Assembly (NCBI GenBank): GCA_003152075.1 | Contig: PLZG01000023.1 | Coordinates: forward strand, 1-56,193 | DNA from: a candidate division FCPU426 bacterium | GTDB lineage: Bacteria; Oederibacteriota; Muellerivitia; Muellerivitales; Muellerivitaceae | Direction of reading: 5' to 3' | DNA length: 56,193 nt | In this document: positions 47,652-56,193 of the stretch, in pieces | How the letters are laid out: every line of letters starts with the position of its first letter | Numbering within the stretch: the first letter of the stretch is position 1 | Program-made: the position numbers and the translations under genes | Notes under the pieces: model-generated | What the model saw: only the letters and a program-made list of their open reading frames with translations | The model's database searches: none | What the model was told of the DNA's origin: nothing

Positions 47652-47710
47652 TCCGCATTCCATTCATTGTGGGCCTTCATTGTTCAGGGAAACTGCCGTT
47701 AGAAAAGCAT

Positions 47711-50125
47711 ATGGTTTCTTCAACACGAGCTTTTAAACTCCTCAAAATACTTTTGATTTCCTTGATTTGCGCCGGCGTTTGGGGTGCTGGTGTCACCTTG
47801 GCTGGGGCCGCCATTACCAGCAAGGGAACCGAGTTTTGGCTGTCCTTTCCCCGTGGTTTTGGCGGGGGAAGCACTCCCACTACCCTTCAATTATTCATCT
47901 CCAGCGCTACAGATAATTCGGGACAAGTCCAGATACCCGGTTTGGGGTTCACCGCACCCTACACAGTGGCCGCGGGCGCTTCCACTCAAATTTTTATACC
48001 TACCGCCGCCGAAGCCACCTCGGCCGATGGAATCGCGGCAATTGGCATTCACGTGACGGCTATCAACCAGGTCTCGGTTTATGGATTGAACTATGTTCAA
48101 TTCGCCAGTGACGGCTATACCGGTTTGCCAGTTGAGGCATTGGGCACTAGCTACATGGTTTGCTCTTATAAGAATGAAACTTACAGTAGCTCGTCCCTTA
48201 TCAGCACCGAGTTCGCGGTAGTGGGTACCCAGGATTGCACCCACGTGACCATTACCCCCCGTATCAAGGTGGGAAGCCACCTACCGGGAGTTCCGTACGT
48301 TATTACTTTGTATCAAGGGGATGTATACCAACTCCAAGATTCCACGGTCCCGGATGACCTAACCGGAACCCAAATATCTTCCGATAAACCTGTAGCCGTT
48401 TTTGGGGCCCATGCTTGTGATTTTGTTCCGGCGGGTGTTCCTTCCTGTAACCACTTAGTTGAGGAGCTTTGGCCCCTTCAATATTGGGGAACCGAATTCC
48501 TCACGATGCCCCTGGCCACCCGCACAGGTGGGGATACTATTCGTTTTATTTCCTCTTCCAACGCGACTACCGTGACGGTCAATGGAACGGCTCTTCTACC
48601 CCTTCAAAAGGGATGGTCCGTGGACCAAAACGAGATCATTCCACTTTATGTCACATCCAACAATCCGATTTATGTTATGCAATTCTCCAATGGAGGAACT
48701 CAGGACAATTCGGGTTTGACCTACATCGCCGACCCGACGATGATTTCCATACCCCCTATCAACGAATTCGATACGGATTACCTAATTTCTATTCCTACGA
48801 CTGTTTTCACTGGGAATTACGAGAATGTGGTGACGTCCATCGCGGGAAGCGTGACCTTTGACGGCGCGCCCATCTCTGGCGCTTCCTACAGTTCCATACA
48901 AGGGGCCTATTGGGGCGTCCAGCTTTCCGTCAGCCCGGGCGTCCATCATTTGACTTCCTCCATCCCTTTTGGGGTGGTGGCCTATGGTTATGGTAATGCG
49001 GACGCCTATGGGTACCCGGGCGGAATTTATTTCAGTTCCAATACTCCCGTGCCGACTTTTACCCCAGGAGGGAGTTGCGCCTCGCCAACTCCAACCAATA
49101 GTCCAACCCTCACCCCTACTTTAACCCTCACCAATACTTGGACCGTTACACGCACCCGGACACCCACATTAACTTTTACTTCCACACAAACCTTTACGCC
49201 GACCTGGACTTTCACTATTACCTTAACCCCTACACTGACCTTGACACCTAGTCCCACTTATTCTCCGACACCGACCAGGACACCCACCGATACGCTCACT
49301 TTCACGCCAACCTTCACTCCCACACCAACTTTTACCCCAACTCCCACTTTCACCCCTACGAACACAGACACTCCCACCTTTACCCCAACCATTACCAACA
49401 CGCCTACTCCCACCGATACCCCCACACCCACTTCCTCAACATCCAATACACCGACTCTCACACCTACCCCAACCTTAACCCCAACCATTACTCCTACCGA
49501 TTCTCCTACCAATACACCTACACCGACCCCTTCATCAACCCCAAGCCCAACTTTCACCATGACTTTTTCTCAAACCCTATCCAACACCCCGACGAACAGC
49601 CCCACCACAACACCGACAACAACTCCCACTGTTTCGATAACCTCCACGCCGACCCTTACTCCAAGCGCGACATCTTCAAATACCCCGACCCTTTCCTTGA
49701 CTTCGACCGGGACGCCTTCTCTCACGCCCACGAGTACCCCAACGCCCAGCCCGACTCCTTCAGCAACGCCGGCACCAAGCTTTACTCCCACCGATACCCC
49801 CACGGGATCCTATACTCCGACCCCGACCGTGACTTTGACACCGCCAGCCTCGCCATGTGAAATTCACGTTTGGCCTAATCCCTTTAACCCCAGCAAAGGT
49901 GACGGGGTTTTAAAAATATCCTGTGTTCCCGACAGGGGGGAAGTCGATGTTTATACTCTTTCGGGCGAGTTAGCCCGAAATTTGGCGCCGCTGGCCAACA
50001 TGTGCACTTGGGATGGTCGCAACAACAACGGGGCACCGGTTTCACCTGGAATTTATTTTTACGTTGTTCAAAAGGGAGGGCAGGGACTTCAAGTAGGCAA
50101 GCTGCTCGTGTTGATTGAAAATTAG
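47711..50125 (+). CDS. IgGFc-binding-domain surface protein with Thr/Pro stalk and FlgD-like domain
   Basis: 804 residues from ATG 47711 (a TTG at 47669 adds 14). The signal peptide is [18 protein letters not shown]-type. Residues about 35-435 form an IgGFc-binding N-terminal domain: [53 protein letters not shown] and [20 protein letters not shown]. Residues about 440-715 are Thr/Pro repeat ([11 protein letters not shown] types). The C-terminus is a FlgD-like domain ([40 protein letters not shown]), probably for envelope attachment or sorting. It is most likely a surface-display protein and the longest gene here. Confidence 0.85.
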
Positions 50126-50201
50126 AACTTAGTTCAAAAATAAAATTTTGGGTAAAACCCGGTTAGTTTGGTCATTTTTTATTTATTGTTCAAATTCATT
50201 C

Positions 50202-50230
50202 TTGACATTGAGCAGCGGTAACGGTATCTT
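50202..50230 (+). promoter_or_regulatory. Promoter of the sulfate-uptake operon leader
   Basis: TTGACA (50202-50207), 17-bp spacer, TATCTT (50225-50230). Expected start near 50237, about 12 bases before the first structured element. Confidence 0.7.
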
Positions 50231-50248
50231 TCAAATCATCAAACGCGG

Positions 50249-50312
50249 GCTTTAAGTTTCCAACTTGCTCCGGCGTGCTTCCCGAAAGGGGGCGAACAGC
50301 GAGCTAAAGCGG
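50249..50312 (+). promoter_or_regulatory. Structured leader element, copy 1 (candidate riboswitch aptamer)
   Basis: GCTTTA (50249-50254) can pair with TAAAGC (50305-50310) to close the element. Inside are CCAACTTGC (50260-50268), CCGGC-GTG, a CCC-GAAA-GGG hairpin (50281-50290), AACAG (50295-50299) and GCTAAAGCGG. AGCGG (50308-50312) is complementary to CCGCT (50344-50348) in the following terminator, so closing the element would release the terminator. The 3' end AACAG..GCTAAAG recalls the SAM-II aptamer, but the rest does not match it as I know it. Confidence 0.65.
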
Positions 50313-50334
50313 TAAAAGGTTAAGAGATTTCTCC

Positions 50335-50371
50335 AAACCCGATCCGCTGATAAAGCGGTTCGGGTTTTTTG
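50335..50371 (+). terminator. Intrinsic terminator of leader copy 1
   Basis: AAACCCGA-T-CCGCT (50335-50348), loop GATAA, AGCGG-T-TCGGGTTT (50354-50367), then a T tract. Same shape as the second terminator. Confidence 0.93.
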
Positions 50372-50407
50372 TTTTTGGGTGTTTTTTAGGAAAAATACCC
50401 CGGCGAG

Positions 50408-50489
50408 GCTTTAATCACCAACTTGCCCCGGCCGTGTCCCTCTCTGCATCAGGCTTCAAAGAGGCGGGATCAACAGGGTGCTAAAGCGG
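50408..50489 (+). promoter_or_regulatory. Structured leader element, copy 2 (candidate riboswitch aptamer)
   Basis: Same conserved words as copy 1 in the same order: GCTTTAA (50408-50414), CCAACTTGC (50418-50426), CCGGCCGTG, a longer inner stem CCTCT (50439-50443) / AGAGG (50460-50464), AACAG (50472-50476), GCTAAAGCGG to 50489. The inner hairpin has changed in sequence and length but stays paired, which argues for RNA structure. GCGG (50486-50489) is complementary to CCGC (50522-50525) of terminator 2. Confidence 0.65.
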
Positions 50490-50512
50490 AGTTGTGATTA
50501 TTGGACTTCCAT

Positions 50513-50549
50513 AATCCCGGCCCGCGGTAAGCGGGGTCCGGGATTTTTT
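50513..50549 (+). terminator. Intrinsic terminator of leader copy 2
   Basis: AATCCCGG-CCCGC (50513-50525), loop GGTAA, GCGGG-GT-CCGGGATT (50531-50545), then TTTT. It stands 41 bp before the porin ATG. Confidence 0.93.
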
Positions 50550-50590
50550 GTTTTAGGACCCCAAAATTTAAAGAAAAGGGGTTCAAAATC

Positions 50591-51871
50591 ATGAAAAAGC
50601 TACTGCCTTTTTTGGTTGCTTTGTTGTTGGGCGTGCAGGGGACGACGGTCAAGGTTTGGGCTGAGAATGAGTCGAAGCAGGATTCGGATTCACAGGATAG
50701 CCCGCCGGTGGTTACGGTATCGGACCTGGAAGCTTTAAATAACAGGATTTCGGCCATTGAAAAGTCCAATGTGAAGGTGGGCGTTAACTTGCAGTTTTGG
50801 TATACCCACGTCAGCAACGGTTCAGCGTCCTCCGGTGGGCTTTACCCCAGTTCCAAAAACCAATGGGATGCCTTTTCATTTAAACGGGGTGAAATTTCAA
50901 TCGGATCGGAAATGGGTACCGACCCCAAAATCAGCTGGCTGATTAAACTGGACCCAACCCAGGCCAGCTTCAATGGAGTTGGTGGCAACCAGGCCACCCT
51001 TTTGAGTTATGAAACGGCCCCGGGTATCGGGCCTGTTACGGTGAATGGGAAGTCCGCCACGATTAAAGAAGACGCAGTAAACCCGTTTACCATCGCCAAG
51101 GACTTGTTTGGGAAGGTTTCCTATAGCCCTCTCGCGACATTGATTTTCGGCCAAAACAAATTTGCCCAGGATTTGGAAGGCCGCCAAGCCACCAACGATC
51201 TGGACTTCAACAATTATTCCAACATCGGAGGGAACGCTTTCGGAAACAAAAGAGACATTGGCGTTCAACTGACAGGAACGGGAATTCCCTTGGGGCCACT
51301 TCAAGTGGAATATGTCCTTTCCGTCATTCAGGGTTCGGGCCAAAGCACCGTAGACAACAACGTGGACAAGGATTTCGCGGGACGGGTCAGCGTTACCTAC
51401 GACAAAAACCTCTTCATCGGCGCTTCGGCCTATGACGGCTGGGAACCGAATGGTGCCCGTTGGGATATCGGGTTTGAAGGCCGTTGGACCTATAACGGTT
51501 TGAAAATTCAGGCTGAGTTCATCGAGGGAAACTTGAATACCTTGGACAATAATGCCGCTAATAACAGTTTATGGACACCCTCAGTGCCTTCGGCTTTTTC
51601 AACTCCTGCCGGCCAAATTAACCCCACGGGTTATTACGTCTCGGCCAACTATCGCTATAAGGATTTTCGCTTGGGTGCCCGTTGGGACGGCTATAACTTC
51701 AACCAATGGCCTAATGATCCAGCTAATACGGAGTGGGACACGTTCACGGTTGGTTTGGATTGGTTCCAAGGCAAGGATACCTACAAACTGAGCCTTAACT
51801 GGGAGAATCATTTGTTGGCGGGTGTGGATGAATACAATGTTTGGACCTTGCAGTCCCAAATATCCCTCTAA
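50591..51871 (+). CDS. Outer-membrane porin (OprO/OprP- or DcaP-like)
   Basis: A 426-residue protein with signal peptide MKKLLPFLVALLLGVQGTTV-type. A short helical/coiled segment follows (VSDLEALNNRISAIEKSNVK), then a barrel of alternating strands: FKRGEISIGSEMGTDPKISW, PLATLIFGQNKFAQDL, VSVTYDKNLFIGASAYDGWE-type and SLNWENHLLAGVDEYN; the C-terminus is QSQISL. The coil followed by barrel recalls anion-selective porins. First gene of the sulfate operon, so a sulfate or sulfonate pore is plausible by context. Confidence 0.8.
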   Translation: MKKLLPFLVALLLGVQGTTVKVWAENESKQDSDSQDSPPVVTVSDLEALNNRISAIEKSNVKVGVNLQFWYTHVSNGSASSGGLYPSSKNQWDAFSFKRGEISIGSEMGTDPKISWLIKLDPTQASFNGVGGNQATLLSYETAPGIGPVTVNGKSATIKEDAVNPFTIAKDLFGKVSYSPLATLIFGQNKFAQDLEGRQATNDLDFNNYSNIGGNAFGNKRDIGVQLTGTGIPLGPLQVEYVLSVIQGSGQSTVDNNVDKDFAGRVSVTYDKNLFIGASAYDGWEPNGARWDIGFEGRWTYNGLKIQAEFIEGNLNTLDNNAANNSLWTPSVPSAFSTPAGQINPTGYYVSANYRYKDFRLGARWDGYNFNQWPNDPANTEWDTFTVGLDWFQGKDTYKLSLNWENHLLAGVDEYNVWTLQSQISL

Positions 51872-51889: not shown

Positions 51890-52900
51890 ATGAAAAAATA
51901 CACATGGTTATTGAGTTTGTTACTGTTGTTCACCCCCTTGTCATTTAGCTTGGCTGAAACGGGCAAGGTCACGCTGTTAAATGTTTCTTACGATCCCACG
52001 CGGGAGTTGTACCAAGATTTTGACGCGGCTTTTGCCAAGTATTGGAAAGCCAAAACCGGGCAGGACGTGGAGATCAATCTTTCCAACGGTGGGTCGGGCA
52101 AACAGGCTCGGGCCATCATCGACGGGTTGGAGGCCGACGTGGCCACGCTGGGATTGGCCTATGACATCGATGTCATCGCCGAGCGGGCCAAGTTGTTGCC
52201 AGAGGATTGGCAAAAGCGCCTGCCTGATCACAGCACGCCCTACACGTCCACCATTGTTTTTCTGGTGCACAAGGGAAACCCCAAGGGCATCAAGGATTGG
52301 GGGGACTTGGTGAAGCCCGGTGTCTCCGTCATCACGCCCAACCCGAAGACCTCTGGAGGGGCCCGGTGGAATTTCCTGGCGGCTTGGGGTTACGCTTTGC
52401 AGAAATATAAGAGCGAAGAAAAAGCCCGGGAATTCGTGACAAGCCTCTATAAGAATGTGCCGGTCTTGGATTCGGGGGCCCGGGGGTCCACTACTACTTT
52501 CGTGCAAAGGGGAGTTGGGGATGTCTTGATTGCCTGGGAGAACGAGGCCTTCCTAGCCGTGAATGAATTGGGCAAGGACCAGTTTGAGATCGTGGACCCC
52601 TCGGTCAGTATCCTGGCAGAACCTCCGGTGGCCTTGGTGGACAAGGTGGCGGCCAAACATGGGACTACTGAGGTGGCGCAAGCCTATCTCCAGTATCTTT
52701 ATTCTGCCGAGGGCCAAGACATCATCGCTAAGAATTATTACCGACCCCATTCGAAATCGGCTACGGCCAAGTACGCGAAGCGTTTTTCGAAGATCAAACT
52801 ATTCACGATCGATAAGGTTTTCGGCGGCTGGAAGAAAGCCCAACAGGCTTTCTTCGCCGATAACGGGGTTTTTGACCAAATTTATCTGCCTGGGAAGTAA
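51890..52900 (+). CDS. sbp: Sulfate ABC transporter substrate-binding protein
   Basis: 336 residues with a signal peptide ([19 protein letters not shown]). Sbp/CysP motifs: [80 protein letters not shown] and [20 protein letters not shown]. It binds periplasmic sulfate or thiosulfate for CysTWA. A strong AAAAGGAG precedes the ATG. The porin upstream and permease downstream are within 30 bp. Confidence 0.97.
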
Positions 52901-52930: not shown

Positions 52931-53758
52931 ATGAAGCTGAAATCAACAGGGGTTTTGCCGGGGTTCGGACTCACGATGGGATTTACCGTGACCTATTTGT
53001 GCCTCATCGTCCTTATCCCACTGGGTGCCCTTATTTTAAAAGCCACCAGTCTCAGCTGGGGCCAGTTTTTGGATACGGTCACTAGCCCCCGAGTTTTGGC
53101 CTCCTACCGCTTGAGTTTTGGGGCGGCTTTTATCGGGGCCCTCATCAATTCCATCTTTGGTTTTATGGTGGCTTGGGTACTTGTTCGTTATGAGTTTCCG
53201 GGGAAAAGGCTGGTGGACGCCATGGTGGACTTGCCCTTCGCCTTGCCGACTGCGGTAGCCGGCATCGCTTTGACCGCTCTTTACACGACCAACGGATGGT
53301 TGGGGAGATGGTTGGAGCCATTGGGTATCCATGTGGCTTTCACACCCTTAGGCGTCATCGTGGCGGTGACCTTTATCGGCCTTCCATTTGTGGTAAGGAC
53401 CCTCCAACCCGTCTTGGAATCGCTGGATCCGGAAATGGAAAAGGCCGCGGTTAGCCTGGGCGCCAACCGTTGGTATACCTTGAGCCGGGTGGTTTTTCCC
53501 TCCCTGGTTCCGGCCTGGATCACGGGTTTTTCCTTGGCCTTCGCCCGGGCGGTGGGGGAATACGGTTCGGTGATTTTTATCTCAGGCAACATGCCTATGA
53601 AAACTGAAATTGCCCCTTTGCTGATCATCACGAAACTCGAGCAATATGATTATGCCGGTGCAACGGCCATCGCGGTGGTGATGCTGGTGGTCTCTTTTTT
53701 CTTACTTCTGGGGGTCAATTGGCTGCAGGCAAGGACAGGGCGACACCGTGCCACATAA
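52931..53758 (+). CDS. cysT: Sulfate ABC transporter permease CysT
   Basis: A 275-residue protein with six membrane segments. CysT/CysU hallmarks: LPGFGLTMGFTVTYLCLIVL, FGFMVAWVLVRYEFPGKRLV, DLPFALPTAVAGIALTALYT, and the EAA loop EKAAVSLGANRWYTLSRVVF ending with YGSVIFISGNMP. It forms the channel with CysW. AAAGGAG lies just upstream of the ATG. Confidence 0.97.
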   Translation: MKLKSTGVLPGFGLTMGFTVTYLCLIVLIPLGALILKATSLSWGQFLDTVTSPRVLASYRLSFGAAFIGALINSIFGFMVAWVLVRYEFPGKRLVDAMVDLPFALPTAVAGIALTALYTTNGWLGRWLEPLGIHVAFTPLGVIVAVTFIGLPFVVRTLQPVLESLDPEMEKAAVSLGANRWYTLSRVVFPSLVPAWITGFSLAFARAVGEYGSVIFISGNMPMKTEIAPLLIITKLEQYDYAGATAIAVVMLVVSFFLLLGVNWLQARTGRHRAT

Positions 53759-53779: not shown

Positions 53780-54694
53780 ATGAGCAATGAGAACCAGGAA
53801 GTTATTATCAATCCCCGGCAATCGGGCTATGACCCGACCCGAGCCTTGACCGAACCACCGATGGTCCGGTTCATTCTGATCGCACTGTCGCTTTTGTTCT
53901 TGGGCCTTTTTCTTTTCGTGCCCTTGGCGGTTGTTTTCGCCACGGCTTTGGAAAAGGGAATCCAGGCTTATGGGGAGGCGGTCCTGGAAAGGGACGCCCT
54001 TTCAGCTATTCGCTTAACCCTGCTGACGACTTTTATTTCGGTTGTTCTCAACACCCTGTTTGGGGTGGCTTCGGCCTGGGCTATTACCCGGTTCCAATTT
54101 CCAGGCAAAAACATTTTGATCACCCTTATTGACCTTCCCTTTACCGTTTCTCCGGTGGTTTCGGGCCTTGTTTTCGTTCTGCTCTTCGGGCTTCAAGGCT
54201 ATTTTGGGCATTGGCTGGCCGACCATAATTTAAAAGTGATCTTCGCCACGCCGGGGATTGTCTTGGCTACCGTTTTTATTACTTTTCCCTTCATCTCCAG
54301 GGAGCTTATTCCCCTCATGCAGGAACAGGGACCGGAGGAGGAGGAGGCTGGTATGGTTTTGGGAGCCAGCGGGTGGCAAATATTCTGGAAGGTCACCTTG
54401 CCCAACATCAAGTGGGGCCTTCTCTATGGAATCATCCTTTGCAACGCCAGAGCCATGGGTGAATTTGGCGCGGTGTCTGTAGTTTCCGGCCATATCCGGG
54501 GCCTGACCAATACTATGCCTCTTCACGTGGAAATCCTTTATAACGAGTATAACTTCACAGCGGCTTTCGCTGTGGCGTCCCTGCTGGCCTTCCTGGCCCT
54601 TTTAACATTAGTAGCCAAAGCTTTTATTGAAACTCACGCACAAGATGAAAAAATAGCCTTGCCGCCAGCACACGAACAGTCGAGGACACCATGA
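53780..54694 (+). CDS. cysW: Sulfate ABC transporter permease CysW
   Basis: A 304-residue protein with about 30 polar residues before the first membrane segment, then six helices. Motifs: [40 protein letters not shown], the EAA loop [20 protein letters not shown], and [20 protein letters not shown], which distinguishes CysW. Its stop overlaps the cysA start (ATGA). Confidence 0.97.
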
Positions 54695-55737
54695 GCATCG
54701 AAGTTCGAAACCTCAGCAAAAGGTTTAATGGTTTTCAGGCCGTCAAGGATACCAACCTGAAATTGGAGTCGGGTTCCCTGACGGCCCTCCTAGGCCCCTC
54801 GGGATCGGGGAAAAGCACCCTGCTTCGGATGATCGCCGGGCTGGAAGTGCCTGACACCGGGGCGATCCACCTGACCGGCCGGGAGGCTACCCATGTTTCC
54901 GCAAAGGAAAGGAATGTGGGGTTCGTGTTCCAACATTACGCACTGTTCAAGCATATGACGGTTTTCGAGAACATCGCATTCGGGCTCCGGGTGCGCAAAC
55001 AAAAAGAAAGCGAAATCCTGGAGAGGGTGTACGAACTTTTAAGCTTGATTCAATTGACCGGATATGACAAAAGATTTCCCGCTCAATTGTCCGGGGGCCA
55101 AAGGCAAAGGGTGGCGGTGGCCCGGGCCCTCGCTCCTCGGCCCGAAGTTTTGCTTTTGGACGAGCCTTTCGGGGCCTTGGACGCGAAGGTGCGGGAAGAA
55201 CTGCGGGAATGGATACTGAAACTTCACGAGGAAAGCCATGTCACGACCCTTTTCGTTACCCATGACCAGCAGGAAGCCTTGGAGGTGGCCAGCCGAATTT
55301 TGATCATGAACCACGGGGCCATCGAGCAGGATGGCACGCCAATCGAGATATTCGACAAGCCCGCTTCCCACTTCATCGCCCAGTTCGTGGGGGAAACCAA
55401 CTATATTGACACCGAAGTTTCCGAAAAAGGCCTGGCGGTTTGGGGTCCTTTCCGCTTTCCTGTCAACCCAACCCTGCCCCTGAAGCAGAAAATCCGCATT
55501 TACTTCCGGCCAAACGATGTTTACATGACCGCTCAGTTCGAGACTCTGCAGGTCAGGGCACGGATTGCCAAGGCCCGTTTTAAGGGAACGATCATCGAGT
55601 ACAAGTTGGATATTGGGGAAGATAAACATATTTCTGCACAGATTCCTAAAGGGGTGGCCTTGGCCAGCGGGTTCAAAGATGGGCAAGAAGTTTATGCCGC
55701 CATCACGGCCTTCCACGTGTTTCCCATTGAGTCTTAA
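54691..55737 (+). CDS. cysA: Sulfate ABC transporter ATP-binding protein CysA
   Basis: A 348-residue protein. ATPase motifs: Walker [20 protein letters not shown]-loop [20 protein letters not shown], signature [17 protein letters not shown], Walker [13 protein letters not shown] and the H-loop [14 protein letters not shown]. The C-terminal TOBE-like domain (about 240-348) includes [19 protein letters not shown]. It powers CysTW. ATGA overlap with cysW. Confidence 0.97.
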
Positions 55738-55819: not shown

Positions 55820-56193
55820 ATGACTGGAAAAGACGAAAGAAAAGCCATGCCAACCACAATCGAACCTAAGACCCTCTCCCACCTAAAACAGCTGGAGGCG
55901 GAAAGCATTTTTATTATCCGGGAAGTGGCCGCCGAGTTCAAAAACCCGGTCATGCTCTATTCCGTGGGCAAAGACTCCAGCGTCATGGTGCGCCTAGCCC
56001 AGAAGGCCTTTCACCCCGGCAAGATTCCCTTTCCCCTCCTGCATGTGGACACGGGCTACAAATTCCCCGAGATGTACGAGTTCCGGGACAAGTTCATAAA
56101 GGACATCGGCGCAAAGTTGATTGTGGAGCGCAACGAGGAAGCCATCGCGGGTGGGTCCAGCCCCTTCAAGTACGGGGTCCAGAAATGCTGCGG
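55820..56193 (+). CDS. cysD: Sulfate adenylyltransferase subunit 2, CysD (3' end cut by window edge)
   Basis: Open to the window end; 124 residues seen from ATG 55820 (ATG 55847 is an alternative). It carries [20 protein letters not shown], the PP-loop [20 protein letters not shown] and [20 protein letters not shown], all typical of CysD. With CysN it makes adenosine 5'-phosphosulfate from ATP and sulfate. It follows cysA by 82 bp and completes the uptake-to-activation order; cysN and reductases are probably beyond the edge. Confidence 0.95.

Follow-up and report, generated by a model that had tools for sequence, protein, structure and literature searches.

The leader and the operon it precedes

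The window, i.e. the whole stretch of 56,193 nucleotides that was analysed, comes from an uncultured FCPU426 bacterium and contains a leader with two copies of one RNA element upstream of a sulfate-import operon, all on the plus strand. An earlier reading made from the letters (the sequence-only reading) had proposed the gene order porin-sbp-cysT-cysW-cysA-cysD. Five of these genes are identified by NCBIfam: sbp, the sulfate-binding protein (51890-52900; NF008022, E 6e-156), the sulfate permeases cysT (52931-53758; TIGR02139, E 1e-125) and cysW (53780-54694; TIGR02140, E 6e-121), the sulfate ABC ATPase cysA (54691-55737; TIGR00968, E 1e-110), and cysD (55847-56193; NF003587, E 2e-45), which is truncated where the window ends and encodes a subunit of sulfate adenylyltransferase. 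The first controlled gene (50591-51871) is an ORF for a porin-like outer membrane protein that has homologues behind the element in relatives and no Pfam match. Directly upstream of the leader, positions 47669-50125 encode a large protein that combines an IgGFc-binding domain with a long stretch rich in threonine and proline.

The leader opens with a promoter-like site, TTGACA-17-TATCTT (50202-50230), matching the consensus at 10 of 12 positions, in keeping with the good promoter claimed earlier; a TTGACA box is found at a similar spacing upstream of the first copies in relatives, e.g. L008 and L011. Between promoter and operon lie the two aptamer copies, at 50243-50313 (72.9 bits, E 2e-16) and 50401-50490 (71.2 bits, E 6e-16), as scored by covariance model R2 (25 sequences), whose E-values, like those of the four-sequence model R1, are rough. 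Each copy is followed by its own intrinsic terminator, as the sequence-only reading had it: the first at 50335-50375 (stem 50335-50348/50354-50367, folding z -4.81) and the second at 50513-50552 (stem 50513-50526/50532-50545, folding z -3.47), both continuing into a U tract. The conserved words listed in that reading are likewise all present, in the same order, in both copies, and two repeat families run across the copies (D1, 30 nt, 73%; D3, 18 nt, 89%). A covariance-model search of the bacterium's own genome returned these two copies (E 6e-19 and 1e-15) and no third, the next best match standing at 0.8. Such scores, together with the presence of the copies here alone in the genome, indicate that the element is not due to chance.

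A strong Rfam match had been named as the sign of a known class. Rfam 15 gives no riboswitch match at the element, either with E-values as high as 10 admitted or with a query of 260 bases, and scans of relatives and of whole genomes likewise assign the element to no known family. Neither SAM-II (RF00521) nor SAM-V (RF01826) matches the elements even with E relaxed to 10, let alone reaches its curated cut-off; RF00521 gave no match in genome searches either, its best weak matches lying elsewhere than the element. Matches to NrrF, Trp_leader and similar families are terminator look-alikes below threshold and were discarded.

Fold, covariation and probable kinship with SAM-II and SAM-V

In copy 1, the loop of hairpin P1 (50243-50246/50273-50276) contains the third strand CUUUAA (50250-50255), the CC of P2a (50260-50261), which pairs with GG 50311-50312, and the 5' strand of the pseudoknot P2, UUGCUC(C) (50265-50271), which pairs with (C)GAGC-U-AA (50300-50307) leaving U50305 bulged. 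A P3 hairpin (50277-50293) follows P1, and A50295-A50296 precede P2; the minimum free energy (MFE) fold reproduces P1 and P3. Copy 2 has the same layout, with P1 at 50401-50404/50431-50434, the third strand CUUUAA at 50409-50414, P2a formed by CC 50418-50419 and GG 50488-50489, P2 formed by UUGCCCC (50423-50429) and GGUGC-U-AA (50477-50484), and a P3 that includes UCCC 50437-50440/GGGA 50466-50469.

Hairpin P1, the P3 hairpin and the pseudoknot P2 are supported by covariation. The structure tested on alignment A5 (MAFFT, 25 sequences) comprised P1, P3, P2, P2a and two U-A pairs: 86.6% of the cells are paired versus 77.1 +/- 1.2 after shuffling, with 0 of 500 shuffles as high, and 45 cells are changed on both sides versus 19.4, counts that here and below are not strict probabilities because the aligned sequences are related, although the changes nonetheless span distant phyla. 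Control structures slid along A5 give 31-57% paired cells. P1 forms 121 bp, versus 85.6 +/- 5.8 when permuted between copies (0 of 2000 permutations as high), and all four of its pairs show double changes, e.g. ACGC/GCGT, CGGC/GCCG, TTAT/ATAA (L021) and CGGT/ACCG (L015). P3 varies in length and sequence while its complementarity is kept, with double changes at five pairs; it is absent, as in SAM-II, from L021, L022, L066 and many of the copies found before metH. P2 was never part of the search or alignment model, and its statistics come from an alignment not fitted to it: over 52 copies, 222 of 312 possible pairs form, versus 204 +/- 2.5 on permutation, and 0 of 5000 permutations are as high. 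Exchanges include TTGC..GC-TAA to TTGG..CC-TAA in six copies (C-G to G-C) and TTGT..AC-TAA in one (U-A). At the third P2 position, 31 of the 52 copies have a mismatch; the paired ones read C-G 11 times, U-A eight times, and A-U and U-G once each. P2a (pairs 18-89 and 19-88) is 100% paired over the 25 sequences, with one C-G to U-G change. Four loci (L011 390-450, L015 1266-1407, L017 1302-1426, L018 1268-1408), with copies before peroxiredoxin genes, and one Elusimicrobiota copy (L135) carry 16-50 extra nucleotides between the third strand and P2a that are partly hairpin-forming.

The helix GCTTTA/TAAAGC, proposed earlier, was rejected: it shows no covariation, as many relatives have GATTTAA or GTTTTAA on the 5' side and still an unchanged CTAAAG on the 3' side. 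Its letters match instead the triplex strands of SAM-II and SAM-V. The claim that the overall order does not fit SAM-II falls with it, since the order fits SAM-II/SAM-V once P1 is moved one step outward (ACGC/GCGT, CGGC/GCCG) and GCTTTAA is taken to be a strand of the triplex, not of a helix.

In the crystal structure of SAM-V, U8-U10 form a third strand in the P2 groove, P2 itself consisting of U20-A48, U19-A49 and G21-C46 to C24-G43, with a bulge at U47; of the ligand S-adenosylmethionine (SAM), the adenine pairs with U47, the sulfonium faces U9 and U20, and the amino-acid end is held by A50, while a P3 hairpin and A's precede P2 and two P2a base pairs close the fold on its 3' side (PMC6061858). 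Copy 1 possesses counterparts of these parts in U50251-U50253, in U50265, U50266 and G50267, and in G50303, C50304, U50305 and A50306-A50308, as well as in P3 (50277-50293), A50295, A50296 and C50260-C50261 with G50311-G50312. Over 52 distinct copies, UUU is retained in 51, UUG, UAAA and CC in all 52, and GG in 51; in SAM-V (PMC6061858) and in the SAM-II consensus, these letters make the contacts to SAM or the pairs of P2a. The position of SAM-V A18, which contacts the amino-acid end, is C50264 in copy 1 and C in most copies, A occurring in L008b, L021, L126, L130, L132 and others; the Rfam SAM-II consensus also has C there (GGCUUG..GCUAAAgAGGCC). The metH copies of Elusimicrobiota (GAUUU..CCGAAUUGCCCC..GCUAAAGAGG) are closer still to the SAM-II consensus.

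The features that define the SAM-II/SAM-V superfamily are thus found: an H-type pseudoknot in which the P1 loop pairs with a 3' strand (P2), the SAM-contacting letters (third-strand UUU, the UU-G of P2, and G-C-U-A-A-A with its bulged U), and a P2a joining the loop CC to the GG 3' of UAAAG, as well as the P3 stem-loop followed by conserved A's of SAM-V. From these correspondences, the element most likely works like SAM-II and SAM-V and belongs to their superfamily. With SAM-II (RF00521, SAM_alpha) it shares the order P1 - UUU third strand - P2a strand - UUGC - P1' - GCUAAAG - GG, the C before UUG, the intrinsic terminator that follows, and metX among other sulfur and methionine targets; it differs in having a P3 in most copies, a longer P2 (UUGCNCC/GGNGC-U-AA), a P2a that is shorter, with 2 invariant pairs, a freely varying P1 of 4 bp, and hosts among FCPU426, Elusimicrobiota and Desantisbacteria instead of Alphaproteobacteria. 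With SAM-V (RF01826) it has in common a P3 between P1 and the A's before P2, a 2-bp P2a, a P2 made up of some five pairs and a further two U-A pairs, one U being bulged (PMC6061858), and, in relative L126, a Shine-Dalgarno sequence in P2a. Unlike SAM-V, which is translational and occurs in other phyla, it is predicted to be transcriptional in nearly all copies, and it reads CC-A-A-C-UUG where SAM-V has ACUGUAUUG. The best reading is a superfamily variant mixing features of both classes, and not a new fold; the earlier suggestion left a choice between a new class and a distant variant, of which the latter applies.

Distribution and target genes

Homologues, which the sequence-only reading looked for upstream of sulfur genes, were found throughout the window's family and in further phyla. 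With R1 the element was detected in 8 of 8 genomes of the family and in three others of the same phylum (G008, G017, G018). In two genomes of the same family it lies upstream of porin homologues: L008 has a tandem there, and L011 has a single copy in addition to a tandem, the latter before a 1-Cys peroxiredoxin (Pfam). A pattern scan of GTDB genomes located it in FCPU426 (including L053, which holds the copy from a genome of the same genus), Elusimicrobia, Desantisbacteria and MAGs labelled Acidobacteria. R2 matched 12 of 384 genomes, just one of them, from Desantisbacteria, being outside the phylum among some 340 such genomes, a sign that false positives are few. In the Elusimicrobia phylum, 21 of 295 genomes were matched. 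Several matches were set aside: one in Treponema (L051) lies within a coding region and is due to chance, R1 matches at E 0.02-0.1 in other families of the phylum (L024, L025, L026, L034, L041) are chance-like, and so is the R2 match L143. A degenerate copy with a broken P1 (2 bp), possibly a decayed element, lies beside an apparent porin-gene 3' end (L032 / L052, G005:C24:662123-662185). Viral contigs searched for the patterns of SAM-V, SAM-II and the Elusimicrobiota form gave no match in any of the three scans, and five megaplasmid records contained no genuine alphaproteobacterial SAM-II upstream of metX. The open-access literature on FCPU426 or Elusimicrobi* with SAM riboswitches yielded no relevant paper; an earlier description may exist elsewhere.

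The genes behind the element belong largely to methionine and sulfur metabolism. metK follows two copies in L136 (NCBIfam E 2e-57), metH is found at seven loci, metX-metW in L124, and metY at four (L065, L126, L127, L129) as well as behind a pair in L119. Besides the sulfate operon, cysT (L128), cysD (L059), a hexapeptide transferase that is probably a serine acetyltransferase (L061), sulfonate/nitrate-type ABC ATPases (L019, L022), peroxiredoxin and a DsrE-like protein are targets. These names rest on NCBIfam or Pfam for one representative each of metK, metH, metX, metY, cysD, peroxiredoxin and DsrE, and on the translation for the others. Among MAGs labelled Acidobacteria, L056 and L058 have the element before the gene of a small conserved protein (95 aa and without a Pfam match in L056), a candidate new member of the sulfur/SAM regulon. 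Elusimicrobiota copies of the TTGG/CCTAAAG type (L131, L137, L140, L144) stand before TPR proteins and a small protein with no evident sulfur role.

Switching, ligand and significance

Each terminator is matched by a competing antiterminator fold, which, like the element, its conservation, the covariation of P1, P3 and P2, the targets and the terminators, is computed. In copy 1 (50308-50348), AGCGG 50308-50312 pairs with CCGCU 50344-50348 around an inner hairpin GGUU/AACC plus GAG/CUC, and this is both the MFE and the centroid structure of 50300-50349 (-14.3 kcal/mol, z -2.61). In copy 2 (50486-50525), GCGG 50486-50489 pairs with CCGC 50522-50525 around GAUUA/UAAUC within the MFE of 50478-50527 (-18.1 kcal/mol, z -3.05). 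The inner hairpin lies between the aptamer end and the terminator arm, and its 3' side is the terminator base. For both copies, the MFE of a transcript ending at the terminator 5' arm holds the antiterminator, and the full transcript folds the terminator.

Among relatives, a script places terminators behind 45 of 52 copies, and the 3' end of the aptamer, UAAAGCGG(U), is complementary to the terminator 5' arm. The contiguous run reaches nine pairs in L015, L011 and L018 and eight in several others, and averages 5.1 versus 3.7 with the arm shuffled. The GCGG:CCGC antiterminator claimed earlier is present as complementarity in both copies of the window (5 and 4 bp), a pairing that on its own is within chance (p 0.14 and 0.55); it gains significance only when relatives are compared and the conserved inner hairpin is taken into account (z -2.6 and -3.1). 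In metH copies 4-18 nt separate the aptamer from the terminator, and no antiterminator is evident; these copies may use another antiterminator partner. L126 has no terminator, and an AGGAG in its P2a strand lies a few bases before the ATG, as in SAM-V, which suggests the translational mode of that class.

Read together with the fold, these elements make it very likely that each copy is a SAM-binding riboswitch of the SAM-II/SAM-V superfamily working as a transcriptional OFF switch. At low SAM levels, the nascent AGCGG/GCGG would pair with the CCGC(U) of the terminator 5' arm, the antiterminator would form, and RNA polymerase would go on to transcribe the sulfate-uptake genes. At high levels, SAM would sit in the triplex of third-strand UUU, UUG and GC-U-AAA and lock the 3' letters of the aptamer into P2 and P2a; the terminator would then form and sulfate uptake would stop. 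We infer the OFF direction because the antiterminator and the ligand-bound P2/P2a share letters, so that the ligand should favour termination. Two full copies in series would give a steeper, lower-leak response. Tandem SAM-II riboswitches in which each copy has a terminator have been termed pseudo-cooperative (PMC9481103). The leader resembles those tandem SAM-II and SAM-II/SAM-V arrangements in placing two SAM riboswitches of one superfamily serially; it differs from them in aptamer variant and host phyla, in having two transcriptional copies before sulfate uptake, and in that tandems of this variant also precede metK (L136) and metY (L119).

The ligand is very probably SAM, because the element precedes metK and methionine genes and has the SAM-II/SAM-V pocket. 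The same genome also carries a SAM-I riboswitch (S-box, RF00162) on the same contig at 32956-33077 (89.6 bits), with a terminator behind it and then a gene that reads as threonine synthase. SAM-I is presumed to bind the same ligand; its four-way-junction fold is unrelated to that of the element and its sequence shows no resemblance to it. Exactly one SAM-I is found per genome in 7 of 8 family genomes (the exception, G003, is 65% complete), and in several of them it shares a contig with the sulfate operon; the genome thus seems to use two unrelated SAM riboswitch folds. To note, a sub-threshold SAM-I match (31.4 bits) also occurs 3' of metK in L136 (2932-3037).

This coexistence leaves some room for a division of labour in which the FCPU426 branch keeps the fold but senses SAH, cysteine, O-acetylserine, APS or sulfate, SAM being left to SAM-I. 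Riboswitch variants with a changed ligand are known in general, and the FCPU426 targets are sulfate, cysteine and peroxiredoxin genes (sulfate uptake, cysD, the probable serine acetyltransferase, peroxiredoxin) rather than met genes. However, the ligand-contact letters are identical in FCPU426 and in the Elusimicrobiota metK, metH and metX copies, with no branch-specific change, and a tandem responding to a non-SAM sulfur signal, or with altered pocket selectivity, that complements SAM-I is improbable. Less probable still is a structured leader bound by a protein such as a sulfur regulator: tandem copies could also be protein sites, but near-invariant pocket letters that are the same as in SAM-II/SAM-V, pseudoknot covariation and conservation across phyla are typical of aptamers and not of hairpins bound by protein. 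A peptide-coding attenuator, hinted at by RF00513 Trp_leader (18.1 bits, cut-off 41), can hardly be entertained, as that match lies after the terminator and below threshold, the leader contains no plus-strand ORF of at least 80 aa, and what is conserved is RNA structure with compensatory changes, not codons. Two ordinary terminators with chance repeats between them, genuine as the terminators are, are refuted by covariation and by the distribution of the core, present in 8 of 8 family genomes and 21 of 295 of another phylum and hardly ever in unrelated genomes.

A tandem transcriptional riboswitch for a sulfur metabolite, as the sequence-only reading put it, is well supported by relatives, covariation, targets, and terminators with their antiterminators. 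In the literature, SAM-II and SAM-V are mainly reported from Alphaproteobacteria, SAM-V also from marine Bacteroidetes; the element, which escapes the Rfam models, would extend their superfamily to FCPU426, Elusimicrobiota, Desantisbacteria and some MAGs labelled Acidobacteria. It combines the P3 and long P2 of SAM-V with the terminator control of SAM-II, plus one putatively translational copy; these being features by which SAM-II and SAM-V were told apart, the variant bears on whether they are two classes or one continuous superfamily. It also predicts a SAM regulon (metK, metH, metX, metY and sulfate uptake) for phyla with few or no cultures, and the present genome seemingly assigns two unrelated SAM riboswitch folds to different branches of its sulfur metabolism.
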